Below the pieces are notes generated by a model that was given only the letters and a program-made list of their open reading frames with translations, was not told the DNA's origin and searched no databases. From an uncultured Rubrobacteraceae bacterium (GTDB lineage Bacteria > Actinomycetota > Rubrobacteria > Rubrobacterales > Rubrobacteraceae): a stretch of 64,000 nt of DNA. The stretch is from contig CADCVD010000164.1 of assembly GCA_902806055.1 (NCBI GenBank), forward strand, positions 1 to 64,000. Direction: 5' to 3'. This document shows positions 9,905 through 33,580 of this stretch, piece after piece (the first letter of the stretch is position 1; every line of letters begins with the position of its first letter). A program made the translations under genes and the position numbers.

Positions 9905-10759
9905 CTATCCTTGATTCTCGGGTACCTCGAACTGGTAGGTTTCGCCGTGGGTGAGGTACCTCACGCGGTCTTCTAGACCGGCCTGGGCGACCGCTCTCTT
10001 GAAATCCTCTAGAGGCGACTTGAAGACGGTGTAATCGTTGTAGTGGATCGGGATGGCGATCTTCGGGTCTACTATCCGCATGGCCTCCACGCCCTGATCC
10101 GCGTCCATCGTGACCAGTAGGCCCAGAACCCTCGTCCCGCCCAGGTGCAGAAGGGCGAGGTCTATCTGAGGGTAGCGGCGGGGGATCTCTCGCAACCTGT
10201 CGTGGATGAGCGTGTCGCCGGTTATGTAGAGCCGCAGCCGGATGCCGCCCTCGGCGGTCCCGAACTCGAGCATGCTCCCCATAACCGGCGGCAGTACCTT
10301 CCTCAGGGGCCCGGGAGCATGCGTGCCGGGCATGGCGGTTACGCGCAGCACGGCATCTCCCTTTCGGACGAGTATCGACTCCCAGGTGTCGAGCGCCGCG
10401 GGCGGCCGGAAACCTTTCCCTTCGAGGTAGCGGGCCGCGTGGGGGGTCGTGATGATCGGTACTCTCTTGTCGAGCTTCGCCTCGGCGACGCGGTCGAAGT
10501 GGTCACCGTGCAGGTGGGAGAGCAGGACGAGGTCGAGGGGCGGGAGGTCCTCTATCTCTATAGCGGGGTTTGTCTGGCGCTCGGAGCGGAGACCGTAGCC
10601 CAGGTGCACGTGGTCGCCGGCGTGCAGAAAGTTCGGGTCGGTCAGGATGGTGAAACCGGCGTAGCGTAAGATGACCGTCGCCGTTCCAACGAAGAAGATG
10701 GAACCACTCCTTAGATCGGCCTCCTCGCTCGTACCAGCTAGAAAAAGATCCCTCTCCAC
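9905..10759 (-). CDS. MBL-fold metal-dependent hydrolase (UlaG-like)
   Basis: [33 protein letters not shown]. Confidence 0.88.
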
Positions 10760-10934
10760 AACGTACCTCTCCTTCTCGCGTTAGCATGCCGCCATCGTTG
10801 TCTGCGGTACTCTTACCTGCAAAGCGGACTCTTCAATCTTCTTGCTAAAAACTTATACGAAAATGCATATGTTTGGCTAGTAGCGCCCCGGTGCATTTAT
10901 TGGGCCAAAGTATTCGAACGGAAGGGAACGAGGC

Positions 10935-28645: not shown

Positions 28646-29434
28646 CTACTTCCTGACGAGAGCACTGTACTCCCGCAGGTCCTTCTCGGCCCGGTCGCGT
28701 ACGTGCTCCGGTATGAGCGCGCCTCCCTTGCCGTAGCGCTTTCGCAGGAGGCTACAGGAGATCTCCAGGTACGCGCTCCGCGTCGCGAGCTCGACCGGTA
28801 CGCTCATCTCTCGCGGAAAGACGCGATAGGCGAGATCTTCTTTAAGACCCATCTCCGGCGGACCCTGCCCGAGCGCTCGCCTCGACGCGAGACGTTCCTC
28901 CCACCTCCGCCGGAGCGCCCGCATCTCCCGCGTATCCGGGGCGACGTTGAGGGGACCGGTCTCGAACGGGTCCTCGGGCATGAAGCCGAAAGCATCCTCC
29001 AGAAGACGAGCCGAACGGAGCGCTCGTCTCGTTCCCCTGCTCCTTAGAAACTCATACTCCGAGCGCAAAAGGACGAGCTGGACGTCGTAGTATGCGCCGA
29101 GACCCGCGAGCGTCGGGCGCCCGGCGTCACGCTTTCGCGCCGCCAGCGCCCGGCTCAACGCGTTACGCTGTTTTATGAACCTCGCGTGCCGCCATCCGAA
29201 GAACCCGCCGCCGAAGACCGAACCCGCCAGGATGGGTAGAGCAGCCGCGAACGGCCCCGCCCAGGAGGTGCCGAAGACCGGCGCCGAGAGCAAGACGGAG
29301 GCGCCGACCAGGCAGGCGACCGCGAACCCGTCCATCGTCGCCCGACGGCTCTCCTCGGCGGCGGCGGCATAGAGATGTCCGAGCTCGTACCACAGCGGGA
29401 CGGTCTCGTCTTCGGGTGTGAGCGGGGAGTACAC
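28646..29434 (-). CDS. Hypothetical membrane protein
   Basis: 262 aa with two TM segments; no recognised family. Confidence 0.55.
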   Translation of the reverse strand: MYSPLTPEDETVPLWYELGHLYAAAAEESRRATMDGFAVACLVGASVLLSAPVFGTSWAGPFAAALPILAGSVFGGGFFGWRHARFIKQRNALSRALAARKRDAGRPTLAGLGAYYDVQLVLLRSEYEFLRSRGTRRALRSARLLEDAFGFMPEDPFETGPLNVAPDTREMRALRRRWEERLASRRALGQGPPEMGLKEDLAYRVFPREMSVPVELATRSAYLEISCSLLRKRYGKGGALIPEHVRDRAEKDLREYSALVRK

Positions 29435-29454
29435 ATGTTAGATTTTACTTCCTC

Positions 29455-30036
29455 GTGTCAACCAAGAGCTCAGCACAGCGCGCGGCCCGGCTCCTCACCA
29501 ACGTCCTGAACCCGTTCTCCATCTTCACCGCGCTCTACGTGCTCGTGGCCTTCTCTCAAGCGGCCACGACGTTTCAGGCTATCCTCTACAGTGGCGTCGA
29601 GATCTTCGCGGCGGCCGTCGTGGCTGGGTACGTACTGCTGCTCCGGCGCAGGAGGAGGGTAGGGGATTTCTGGATCTCTACGAGGAGCCAGCGCATAATG
29701 CCCGCCCTCGTCTTGCTCGCTGCCTTCGTAGCTCTCCTCGCTGTTCTGGCCCTCCTCGCCGCTCCCGGCGCCCTACTCCGAACGAGCCTCTCGATGGGCC
29801 TCGCCAGCGCTACGGTAGCCGCCGTGACCCTCTTCTGGAAGGCAAGCGCCCACGCGGCCGTCGCCGGACACGCCGCCACAGCCGGCCTTCTCGTCCTTGG
29901 CCTGTCCGGCCTTCTCTTCCTGGTGGTACTTCCGGCCGTCTTGTGGTCGCGTGTCGCCGCGAGTGCTCACACCCTCCCGCAGACGCTCGCGGGGGCAGGG
30001 GGCGGCGCGGCTTTCGCGCTCGCCCTTCTGGCATGA
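29455..30036 (+). CDS. Hypothetical multi-pass membrane protein
   Basis: Several hydrophobic helices; its 3' end lies inside the ~110-bp direct repeat. Confidence 0.6.
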   Translation: MSTKSSAQRAARLLTNVLNPFSIFTALYVLVAFSQAATTFQAILYSGVEIFAAAVVAGYVLLLRRRRRVGDFWISTRSQRIMPALVLLAAFVALLAVLALLAAPGALLRTSLSMGLASATVAAVTLFWKASAHAAVAGHAATAGLLVLGLSGLLFLVVLPAVLWSRVAASAHTLPQTLAGAGGGAAFALALLA

Positions 30037-30134
30037 GAAAAGCCCGCCGGAGCGGGCTTTAAGAGTGACCCCACGGGGGTTCGAACTCCGGTTTTCGCCG
30101 TGAGAGGGCAATATCCTAGGCTTCTAGACGATGG
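30025..30134. repeat. Left copy of imperfect direct repeat (offset 1675 bp)
   Basis: cttctggcatgagaaaagcccgcc...tctagacgatgg matches 31700-31809 with a few substitutions. Confidence 0.9.
30039..30060 (-). terminator. Terminator hairpin of the decayed tRNA copy
   Basis: aaagcccgc-cgga-gcgggcttt; minus strand continues ttttctc. Confidence 0.8.
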
Positions 30135-30138
30135 ACAG
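30066..30138 (-). pseudogene. Decayed tRNA-Glu(CUC) copy
   Basis: Nearly identical to 31741-31813, but 5' acceptor reads CTGTCCA opposite TGGGGTC and the T-stem has an A-C mismatch (cggag/ccccg); anticodon loop CTCTCAC kept. Confidence 0.85.
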
Positions 30139-30442
30139 TACACACCGCTTATTTCTCCGCCGCTCTGGGCCAGGAGCCGGAGATAGAGCTGGTGATAGGC
30201 TAGTGGTTAGGCCCTGATACCATGTTCACGGAACTGCCGCTAACGTGTATGCGCAGAAACCCGTCTCCACAGCATCTTTAACTACTACCGCTAGGCGATG
30301 AGATTTCCCACGGCATCATCGAGCGAAGAAGGCTCGAAGGGATAAAGGAGCGAGCAGAACGGGCAGCAGAGTGAACGTTGGCATAGTCCTTTCACCGAAC
30401 GGCCGACACCGTCGATTCTCGGAAGGTGCGCCAGGCCTCGTA

Positions 30443-30479
30443 CCCCATCGCGATAGGCCTGTTAGCTAATGCGATGGGG
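30443..30479. repeat. Stem-loop downstream of metF
   Basis: ccccatcgc / gcgatgggg, 9-bp perfect stem, 19-nt loop, no U-tract. Confidence 0.6.
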
Positions 30480-30542
30480 CTGACTCGCCACGATGGCGAC
30501 CACGTTGATGGCGGAGCTGGAACGTAGCGTCCTGAGTGCCGG

Positions 30543-31433
30543 TTACTCGCCTCGACGCCTGGGCAGCAATGAAGCGTCAGCGACCGGCAGGCCGAGACCG
30601 TTCCAGATCGTCGACGTTGGCTCAGCGCGGTTTAGGGCGTAGAAATGCAGGCCCGGCGCCCCGGCGTCCAGCAACCTTTGACACAGGTCGGTGACGAACT
30701 CGATGCCGAGCTGTCGTTGCGAACTGGCGTCGTCGCCGTATGCCTCCATCTGCTTCTTCAACCACAGCGGGATCTCTGCCCCGCACCCGGCTGAGAAGCT
30801 GGCGACCTTCGGGTAGTCCCAGATCGGCATAATGCCGGGGATGATGGGGATGTCCACGCCTATGCGCTCGACTTGGTCCACGAAGTTGAAATAGGCGTCG
30901 GCATTGTAGAAAAACTGAGTCATGGCCGAGTCGGCGCCCGCCTCCACCTTCTCGCGAAAGTATGCTAGATCTGCGAAGGCTGATTCTGCTTCGGGGTGGA
31001 ATTCCGGGTAGCAACCCACCTCGATATGAAAGTAATCGCCAGTCTGCTCGCGAATGAATTCAACCAGCTCGGTGGCACAGCTAAAGACGCCCGGACTCTC
31101 CATATCACCCGGCAGGTCGCCCCTCAACGCGACGATACGGCGCACTCCGGCTTCCTTGTACCGCTCGAGGAATCCACCGATGCTCTCGCGGGTGCCCTCG
31201 ATGCAGGACAGGTGTGGGGCCACCTCGATACCGGTCTCGTTCATCGTCCTGACCACGGTCTCGATGGTGCCCGAGCGGGTCGTGCCACCGGCGCCGAAGG
31301 TCACCGAGAAGAACGCCGGTTCCAGCATCGCAAGAGGTCCGAGAGCCACGGTGAGGTTCTCCTCTCCCGCGGGCGTCTTGGGCGGGAATAGCTCGACGCT
31401 GAAGACCTTAGAGTGGTTTCGCTGGCTTTGCAT
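30543..31433 (-). CDS. metF: Methylenetetrahydrofolate reductase
   Basis: SKVFSVELFPPKTPAGEENL, PAFFSVTFGAGGTTRSGTIETV, PHLSCIEGTRESI, RRIVALRGDLP, GADSAMTQFFYNADAYFNFVD, GLHFYALNRAEPT. ATG at 31433 preferred. Confidence 0.95.
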   Translation of the reverse strand: MQSQRNHSKVFSVELFPPKTPAGEENLTVALGPLAMLEPAFFSVTFGAGGTTRSGTIETVVRTMNETGIEVAPHLSCIEGTRESIGGFLERYKEAGVRRIVALRGDLPGDMESPGVFSCATELVEFIREQTGDYFHIEVGCYPEFHPEAESAFADLAYFREKVEAGADSAMTQFFYNADAYFNFVDQVERIGVDIPIIPGIMPIWDYPKVASFSAGCGAEIPLWLKKQMEAYGDDASSQRQLGIEFVTDLCQRLLDAGAPGLHFYALNRAEPTSTIWNGLGLPVADASLLPRRRGE

Positions 31434-31699
31434 GAACTTCTCTCCCCTCGAATCAGACCGATAAGCCGTATCAGATGCCGGTACTACTGGCCGAAGCCGG
31501 CGGCGCTGTAGTACGCGCCTCCGGGTCAACGTGCCTACCGGCAGGGCCGTTTGCGTAACACCAAGTATGACGGGACATAGAAACACAGATCACCGTTCTT
31601 GTGCAAGCTGCGGTTGTAGCAAAAGCTGAAGTAGCTGGTAACTATTCTGTAAGCAAAACGCCGTAGATGAAGGCTGACAAGGAGTTTGGAGTAGGGGCT

Positions 31700-31809
31700 C
31701 TTCTGGCATGAGAAAAGCCCGCCGAAGCGGGCTTTAAGAGTGACCCCACGGGGGTTCGAACCCCGGTTTTCGCCGTGAGAGGGCGATGTCCTAGGCCTCT
31801 AGACGATGG
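31700..31809. repeat. Right copy of imperfect direct repeat
   Basis: Same sequence as 30025-30134, including the 11-nt cttctggcatg that is the ORF tail in the left copy. Confidence 0.9.
31714..31735 (-). terminator. Terminator for tRNA-Glu
   Basis: aaagcccgc-cgaa-gcgggcttt; minus strand continues ttttctc. Confidence 0.85.
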
Positions 31810-31813
31810 GGCC
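31741..31813 (-). tRNA. tRNA-Glu (anticodon CUC)
   Basis: GGCCCCA acceptor pairs with TGGGGTC + A discriminator; anticodon arm TCGCC-CTCTCAC-GGCGA; T-arm CGGGG-TTCGAAC-CCCCG; 73 nt. Confidence 0.95.
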
Positions 31814-31928
31814 GGGAGGTTCTCTCGAACCGGGCCAGAGTTTAAACGATGATCGCTCGTTCGTCAAAGGGTTCGTAGCAGGCAGCGTACGATGTTACTG
31901 CTCGATGTTGCGCCGCTGACGGCGGCTC

Positions 31929-33410
31929 TCAGACCGGCAGGTGTTTCATCTCTTTGGCGGCTTTTTCGAGGCGCATCAAGGTACGTTCGCGGCCCAACAG
32001 GGCCAGGGTCTCGAAGAGGCCGGCGCTCACGGTGCGGCCCGTCGCGGCGAAGCGTAGAGGGTGGATCAGGTGCCTAGCACCCTTCTCCTTCTCGGCGGCG
32101 AGACCCCGCACGGCTTCTTCGAGGGTCTCTTCCGTCCACTCCGGCAGGTCTTTGAGGCGTTCGATCAGCTCAGGGAAGTTCTCACGGACGAACTCCTTGC
32201 CGAGCTGCTTCTCGAACTCCTGTCCTTCGTACTCCAGCTCGCCGCCGTAGAAGTAGCCCGCGGCGTCGGGGATCTCCGTGATGCGGCTCAGGCGGTCCCT
32301 GAGAAGCGCCATTATCTGTGTAAGGCGCGGCATGTCGCTCTGCAGCTCGTCTTCGGTCGCGGCGCCCGACTCTACGAGCATGGGGGCGGCTACGAGGGCG
32401 AGCTCCTCGGGACTCTTGCGCCGCAGGTAGATGGCGTTTACGGAGTTCAGCTTCTTCTCGTCGAAGACGGCCGGGTTGCCGCTGACGCGGTCTATGCGAA
32501 ACCGTTCGGCGAGCTCGTCGGGGGAGAAGATCTCCTCGTCCGCCGCGTAGCCGGCCCCCAGTAGCGCCAGGTAGTTGAAGAGGGCCTCCGGCAGGTAGCC
32601 CTGCGCCGCGAAGTCCTCGACGCTCGCCGCGCCGTGTCGCTTGGAGAGCTTCTTCTTGTCCGGGCCGAGGACTTGAGGGACGTGGGCGAAGGCCGGTAGC
32701 TCGCGGCCGAGAGCTTTGTAGATCAGGATCTGGCGCGGCGTGTTCGAGAGGTGGTCGTCGCCCCTTATAACGTGGCTGATCTCCATCCACGCGTCGTCGA
32801 TGGCGGCGGCGAAGTTATAGGTCGGGGTGTCGGTCGACTTCATCAGCACGAAGTCTTCGAGGTTCGCGTTCTCGAAGGTGACGGGACCCCGGATCATGTC
32901 CTCAACAACCGTCTGCCCCTCGCGTGGCGTCTTCATGCGCACGGTGTACGGCTCCCCGGCTTCTATCTTTCTCTTAGCCTCGTCCGGGTCCATCTCGCGG
33001 TACTCGCCGCCAGTGTAGATCGGTTGCCGCTTCTCGGCTCGCGCCTTCTCCCGGAGCTCCGCTAGCTCCTCGGGGGTGGCGAAGTCGTAGTAGGCTGCCC
33101 CCGAGTCGAGGAGCTGCCTCGCCGCCTCGCGATAGAGCTCGAAGCGCTCGGTCTGGCGGTAGGGACCGTAAGATCCATCCACCTCTGGACCCTCGTCCCA
33201 CTCAAGACCGATCCAGCGTAGGGACCGCTTGAGCTGCTCGACCGACTCCTCGGTGGAGCGTTCGAGGTCAGTGTCCTCTATGCGCAAAGCGAACGTGCCG
33301 TTGTTCTTGCGGGCAAAGAGCCAGTTGAAGAGCGCGGTACGCACGCCGCCGACGTGTAGCGAGCCTGTGGGGCTCGGCGCATATCTAACTCTGATCCGAG
33401 AATTATCCAT
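31929..33410 (-). CDS. gltX: Glutamate-tRNA ligase
   Basis: RYAPSPTGSLHVGGVRTALFNWLFAR (HIGH-type), KKLSKRHGA (KMSKS-type), RIEDTDLERST. Confidence 0.97.
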   Translation of the reverse strand: MDNSRIRVRYAPSPTGSLHVGGVRTALFNWLFARKNNGTFALRIEDTDLERSTEESVEQLKRSLRWIGLEWDEGPEVDGSYGPYRQTERFELYREAARQLLDSGAAYYDFATPEELAELREKARAEKRQPIYTGGEYREMDPDEAKRKIEAGEPYTVRMKTPREGQTVVEDMIRGPVTFENANLEDFVLMKSTDTPTYNFAAAIDDAWMEISHVIRGDDHLSNTPRQILIYKALGRELPAFAHVPQVLGPDKKKLSKRHGAASVEDFAAQGYLPEALFNYLALLGAGYAADEEIFSPDELAERFRIDRVSGNPAVFDEKKLNSVNAIYLRRKSPEELALVAAPMLVESGAATEDELQSDMPRLTQIMALLRDRLSRITEIPDAAGYFYGGELEYEGQEFEKQLGKEFVRENFPELIERLKDLPEWTEETLEEAVRGLAAEKEKGARHLIHPLRFAATGRTVSAGLFETLALLGRERTLMRLEKAAKEMKHLPV

Positions 33411-33532
33411 ACGTTAAAGCTAGCATACATCCTGTATGCGGGAAAGCTCGCTGTCCGACTGAAAGCTACCTCCGAAGTGTTTCGGTTCCTACGTATCAGG
33501 GATACAGTAAATATTGAACGTGCTATCGAGAG

Positions 33533-33580
33533 TATGTGGTTCGAAGGAGGAGAGGTTATGTGGTTCGAAGGAGGAGAGGT
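33533..33580 (+). repeat. 24-bp perfect tandem duplication covering the ribosome-binding region
   Basis: tatgtggttcgaaggaggagaggt at 33533-33556 and again at 33557-33580, directly before ATG 33581. Confidence 0.95.

Follow-up and report, generated by a model that had tools for sequence, protein, structure and literature searches.

In the 64,000-nt stretch of DNA from an uncultured Rubrobacteraceae bacterium that we analyzed (hereafter the window), metF lies between two copies of a tRNA-Glu(CUC) gene. The segment spanning 30022-31809 is likely to be an integrase-less remnant, or a mini-island, in a tRNA site used by tyrosine-integrase elements of the Rubrobacteraceae. That DNA was inserted at this tRNA gene is well supported; that the insert used the integrase family found at the same site in two relatives (G007 and G034), and that its integrase was removed by deletion, is what we infer. 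The insert adds one more case to a well-known class of features, and each of the three alternatives weighed below explains less than insertion by an integrase element does. The window genome (G000) is a Rubrobacteraceae MAG of 192 contigs, 91.8% complete with 5% contamination, and the relatives used for comparison, found via gltX, are Rubrobacter and Rubrobacteraceae.

An intact and a decayed tRNA-Glu copy bracket metF

From left to right, the locus consists of a membrane-protein ORF, the left repeat copy, 319 bp, the metF segment, 39 bp, the right repeat copy with its tRNA, and gltX, with the following features:

29455-30036, + strand: membrane-protein ORF without a Pfam or NCBIfam family, bordering the tRNA where the site is empty
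30022-30134, - strand: left repeat copy (tRNA and terminator), displaced and decayed (Rfam, repeat search, alignment, folding)
30037-30060, - strand: terminator of the displaced copy (hairpin, -16.6 kcal/mol)
30135-30453: 319 bp of the insert, with no homologues by sequence comparison except a dispersed repeat
30153-30238, + strand: copy of a dispersed Rubrobacter repeat, 18 bp inward of the left repeat (sequence comparison)
30454-31657: metF segment, 87% homologous to a different place in G006 (contig 14; sequence comparison)
30543-31433, - strand: metF, 5,10-methylenetetrahydrofolate reductase, 296 aa, cargo (TIGR00676)
31658-31696: unmatched 39 bp from the metF segment to the right repeat, the expected place of an element end (no element motif detectable)
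31697-31809, - strand: right repeat copy (tRNA, terminator, and membrane-ORF tail; repeat search, alignment)
31712-31735, - strand: intact-tRNA terminator (hairpin of 9 bp at -15.6 kcal/mol, followed by a U run)
31740-31813, - strand: intact tRNA-Glu(CUC) on the gltX side, presumably the restored target (ARAGORN, Rfam, identity to the single copy in L024)
31929-33410, - strand: gltX, glutamyl-tRNA synthetase, upstream neighbor of tRNA-Glu (TIGR00464, 521.5 bits)

The structure confirms the original prediction, made from the sequence, of an imperfect direct repeat of ~110 bp offset by 1675 bp. The repeat is 113 nt long, its copies are spaced by exactly 1675 nt, and they are identical at 107 of 113 aligned positions (94.7%), with six differing sites. 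No other repeat in the 9-kb region comes close in length: the families that rank next are 29 nt long at ~75% identity. The DNA between the copies, 1562 bp at 30135-31696, lies 3' of (downstream of) the intact tRNA, with the tRNA fragment on the side where the Islander definition places it.

The two copies have had different fates. As predicted, the right copy folds as a tRNA-Glu followed by a terminator: ARAGORN calls a tRNA-Glu(CUC), which scores 56.8 bits against Rfam RF00005 and folds into a cloverleaf at -31.9 kcal/mol. In the left copy, ARAGORN calls no tRNA; the match to RF00005 at 30071-30134, with 27.1 bits, misses the gathering score of 29, and the folding (-16.7 kcal/mol, z +0.81) has no cloverleaf. 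The left copy retains nearly the whole tRNA, but the first 4 nt are missing and four positions are substituted, including one in the T stem. Its acceptor stem is broken and its T stem mismatched, also as predicted, while the terminator hairpins are intact in both copies. Two further differences lie in the terminator and tail. Since the right tRNA is identical to the single tRNA of the closest relative at 74 of 74 positions, the four tRNA changes are assigned to the left copy, in line with the proposal that the displaced copy is decaying. One detail of the prediction needs adjusting. A partial tRNA had been expected at the far junction, and the first 4 nt are indeed missing, but what remains is nearly a whole tRNA and not half of one. 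The repeat does include the end of the membrane-protein ORF, namely its last 15 nt (30022-30036), of which 11-12 are mismatch-free.

Beyond gltX, two 24-nt tandem copies (of the GAGAGTATGTGGTTCGAAGGAGGA type) lie at 33528-33575, just upstream of the next ORF, where they duplicate a ribosome-binding-like stretch.

The site is empty in the closest relative

The closest relative, uncultured Rubrobacteraceae AVDCRST_MAG14 (G006), has a gltX 92% identical to that of the window. Its locus (L024) has the order gltX, tRNA-Glu, terminator, membrane ORF, all contiguous and with a single tRNA copy. The window flanks at 29404-30134 (85%) and 31697-32000 (88%) match L024 as one contiguous stretch. L024 thus offers what had been sought in relatives, the membrane ORF, tRNA, and gltX contiguous without metF, and with its one tRNA copy it shows that the two-copy arrangement is not common to all of them. 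An empty site in a close relative is a supporting feature of integrative elements, and three more relatives have an uninterrupted site (L143, L149, and L148). Because L024 is uninterrupted, the window insert is an addition relative to the nearest relative.

The decay of the left tRNA gives an idea of when this happened. Four changes in 69 nt amount to ~0.06, as compared with the ~0.2 per branch expected at neutral sites after divergence from G006, the latter being half of the corrected gltX fourfold distance (0.315 uncorrected); this is a rough estimate, from four events and without a dated tree. As the left tRNA has accumulated about one third of the neutral expectation, the duplication is probably younger than the divergence from G006.

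The same site is occupied by different DNA in other relatives

Six relatives (G007, G034, G003, G033, G035, and G008) have, besides an intact tRNA, a displaced tRNA copy at the same site, in each case on the membrane-ORF side, and the DNA that the copies enclose differs. The displaced copy is whole in G007 and G034, nearly whole and decayed in G003, and starts from tRNA nt 18 in G033, ~nt 25 in G008, and ~nt 28 in G035. Repeat length is 112 nt in G007 and in G003, at least 110 nt in G034, and 100 nt in G033, near the 113 nt of the window; the repeats of G007, G034, and G003 cover the tRNA and its terminator just as the window repeat does. The two copies in G034 are identical except for a 1-nt deletion.

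Integrases are found at two of these sites. In G007, which belongs to the same genus as the window, a 395-aa tyrosine integrase with PF00589 (Phage_integrase, 67 bits) and PF14659 (SAM-like N-terminal, 40 bits) domains lies 54 nt from the displaced tRNA. A sortase gene comes next, and deeper inside lies a DDE transposase at 10214-10867 (L131, 6733-10867). G034 has, in the same position, an interrupted integrase 71% identical to that of G007. In both genomes, the two sides of the site are on different contigs. Elsewhere, the cargo consists of a 570-aa protein common to G035 and G008 and of a small PGPGW protein in G033, and a PASTA-domain protein adjoins the tRNA in G001; cargo is mostly unrelated between genomes. 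The sequence adjacent to the tRNA on the gltX side is, however, shared by G007, G001, G035, and G008 (leave-one-out E values of 2e-6, 6e-5, 3e-4, and 4e-3, respectively), as expected for an element end. Since the same site is occupied by different DNA, with integrases in two relatives, the tRNA-Glu(CUC) site is an integration hotspot. The earlier proposal of tRNA-associated integration therefore stands as far as the insertion itself is concerned, with L024 providing the empty site and integrase-bearing relatives the same duplication, while for the window insert itself these relatives suggest the mechanism.

In the majority of family genomes examined, some DNA separates the tRNA from the membrane ORF, and an element-end sequence on the gltX side is common to several of them. 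Both observations would also be explained if the occupied site were ancestral in the genus or family, with a single old insertion followed by turnover of cargo, homogenization of the two window tRNA copies by gene conversion, and loss of the G006 insert by recombination between copies. Direct repeats 1.6 kb apart can undergo mutual gene conversion, and those in the window have this spacing. Yet the left and right copies share states in the terminator region that are unlike those of L024 (TTAAAG, TTCTC), the 5' flanks of displaced tRNAs vary between genomes, the shared element-end sequence is undetectable in the window, and there is the mostly unrelated cargo. We thus consider an ancestral occupied site unlikely, though not far-fetched.

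In another member of the family (G016), a cluster of tRNA-Lys, Glu(UUC), Val, Asp, and Phe genes (L154, 547-1406) adjoins a match to a related integrase at 1501-2613; other tRNA genes of the family may thus be integration targets.

metF has changed position within the genus

The metF product matches TIGR00676 with 314.4 bits (cut-off 293.7) over model positions 1-274 of 275, as expected of MetF, and the window genome yielded no other canonical metF. Of 40 Rubrobacteraceae genomes, five have a canonical metF that reaches the family cut-off, and these five belong to the genus of the window, although several of the 40 are incomplete, which makes absence from any single genome uncertain. The remaining genomes have only more distant relatives of metF, many of which are open frames of ~600 codons or more. 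The five metF genes have five different neighborhoods: tRNA-Glu in the window, an IS4/5-type transposase in G006, and a further gene context in each of G003, G001, and G007. What is conserved between the window and G006 is a unit of ~1.2 kb corresponding to the metF segment. The G006 gene also neighbors an arylsulfatase-like gene, whose likely orthologue in the window genome, sought as a marker of an earlier metF position there, starts at a contig edge (C39:1-665).

That the metF segment arrived from outside we find unsupported. Fourfold-site differences between the closest pair (G000 and G006) are 0.19 for metF vs 0.315 for gltX, and those between other pairs are 0.29-0.35 vs 0.38-0.55, so that metF divergence ranks roughly like that of gltX, though metF is somewhat less diverged. 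Because the two track each other, import explains the data no better than relocation within the lineage or exchange between members of the genus. Across these genomes, metF has changed position repeatedly, yet it does not clearly stand out as foreign to the genus.

The dispersed repeat in the 319-bp stretch is ~85-144 nt long. Several genomes of the genus have 4-14 copies each (9 in G000, 13 in G006, 14 in G007), none having been found in G002 and G003. Besides the window copy, examples are found in L068 (5229-5372) and L059 (108-198, 3888-3953, and 7700-7790). Many copies keep a short frame ending in ...FSATLGEEPEVELALV-stop, while the frame upstream is broken. We considered this repeat as a cause of mobility since a copy is also near the G006 metF (L059, 3888-3953), but it lies on the other side of the gene and no consistent story emerges.

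The insert has no recognizable integrase

The attachment site and the extent of the repeat are the same in the window and in the G007 and G034 elements. In contrast to these elements, and to the Islander definition, the window insert (30135-31696) has no integrase ORF, as the original prediction had noted, and no convincing similarity to the G007 integrase. Comparison of the integrase side of the window with those of the two elements gave no clear match, and the element-end motif of the gltX side was not found by profile in the window flank, so that a shared end was not detected. Two candidates were rejected. An element-end motif in the window flank (CTTGTCAGCC), plausible by eye, gave no profile match and was equaled in score by 455 of 2000 shuffles. 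A possible integrase remnant in the 319-bp stretch came down to one alignment of 20 residues (E 0.002) on the strand opposite to that expected, which we take as chance. No close relative of the G007 integrase was found at E 1e-40 in the window genome (91.8% complete); the relatives that it does have are only 41-43% identical, one being a fragment near a contig edge and another split. The split gene, a related tyrosine integrase in two open pieces (L182; contig 160, 20105-20621), is probably a decayed element elsewhere in the window genome.

These absences count against integration by an integrase element, as do a length of 1.6 kb, far below usual island sizes, and a 15-nt ORF tail in the right repeat that exceeds a minimal crossover core. 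Some of the same features would follow from Campbell-type insertion, in which a fragment carrying metF and a tRNA-terminator stretch, whether circular or linear, enters by homologous recombination and no site-specific recombinase takes part: the insert lacks a recombinase, the repeat is long and includes the ORF tail, and the context of metF changes within the genus. However, the integrase elements of relatives generate repeats of equal extent at the same tRNA, which makes a second mechanism unneeded, and no other genome examined yielded a fragment in which metF is joined to tRNA-Glu. Campbell-type insertion is thus very unlikely. Hardly credible is an assembly artefact in which two MAG contigs were misjoined between tRNA copies, perhaps concealing a larger element: although the MAG is fragmented and partly contaminated, and the G007 and G034 sites are split over contigs, the copies differ at six sites, the insert has no long exact repeat for misjoining, the contig continues for ~30 kb on both sides, and no second canonical metF was found in the genome.

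A probable integrase-element origin in the light of known systems

If the window insert derives from an integrase element, as we favor, an element carrying a nearly whole tRNA copy and terminator would have entered by recombination at the chromosomal tRNA that separates gltX from the membrane ORF. A working tRNA would have been kept or regained on the gltX side, and the redundant copy left on the other side would since have lost its acceptor stem. The integrase module would have been lost by deletion, or would never have been part of the insert, in which case an integrase acting in trans would have moved a cargo-only insert; what remains is metF and ~0.35 kb of other DNA.

Insertion of tyrosine-integrase elements into tRNA genes is known to restore the tRNA and leave a displaced copy behind (PMC4383910). 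The window resembles such Islander-type islands in that its ends are an intact and a displaced tRNA in the same orientation, and in that tyrosine integrases occur at the same tRNA site in relatives. It differs by having no integrase, by a displaced copy that is a nearly whole tRNA with terminator, and by a single gene in only 1.6 kb, genomic island sizes peaking at 13.6 and 39.9 kbp (PMC4383910). Closer to the window are the G007 and G034 elements, with the same target, repeats of 110-113 nt, and a displaced copy adjoining the membrane ORF; unlike the window, they have kept an integrase next to the displaced tRNA (in G034 an interrupted one) and have no metF, and the G007 element has a sortase and would exceed 9 kb if both contigs belong together. 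Tycheposons, recombinase-associated tRNA islands of 4-200 kb with a XerD-type recombinase (PMC10872708), similarly have cargo genes beside a tRNA and variable content at a fixed place, but neither their size nor their recombinase is seen in the window insert. Finally, tRNA remnants from mobile element integration are widespread (PMC9897764), and the window likewise has a low-scoring, non-canonical second tRNA copy across the insert, although no mobility genes remain in it.

A broader possibility, which we regard as quite unlikely, is that the site repeatedly captures cargo-only inserts of ~1.5-2.2 kb moved in trans by the integrases of larger elements, in a cassette-like relocation of single host genes. 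Candidates would be the inserts with metF in the window, the 570-aa protein in G035 and G008, and the small PGPGW protein in G033.

We found no earlier description of a Rubrobacteraceae tRNA-Glu(CUC) hotspot, a weak negative given partial literature coverage. For annotators, the left tRNA copy is a remnant. For the family, empty, integrase-occupied, and decayed states of this hotspot are now documented side by side, with the window illustrating that an enzyme of one-carbon metabolism can end as lone cargo between tRNA copies.
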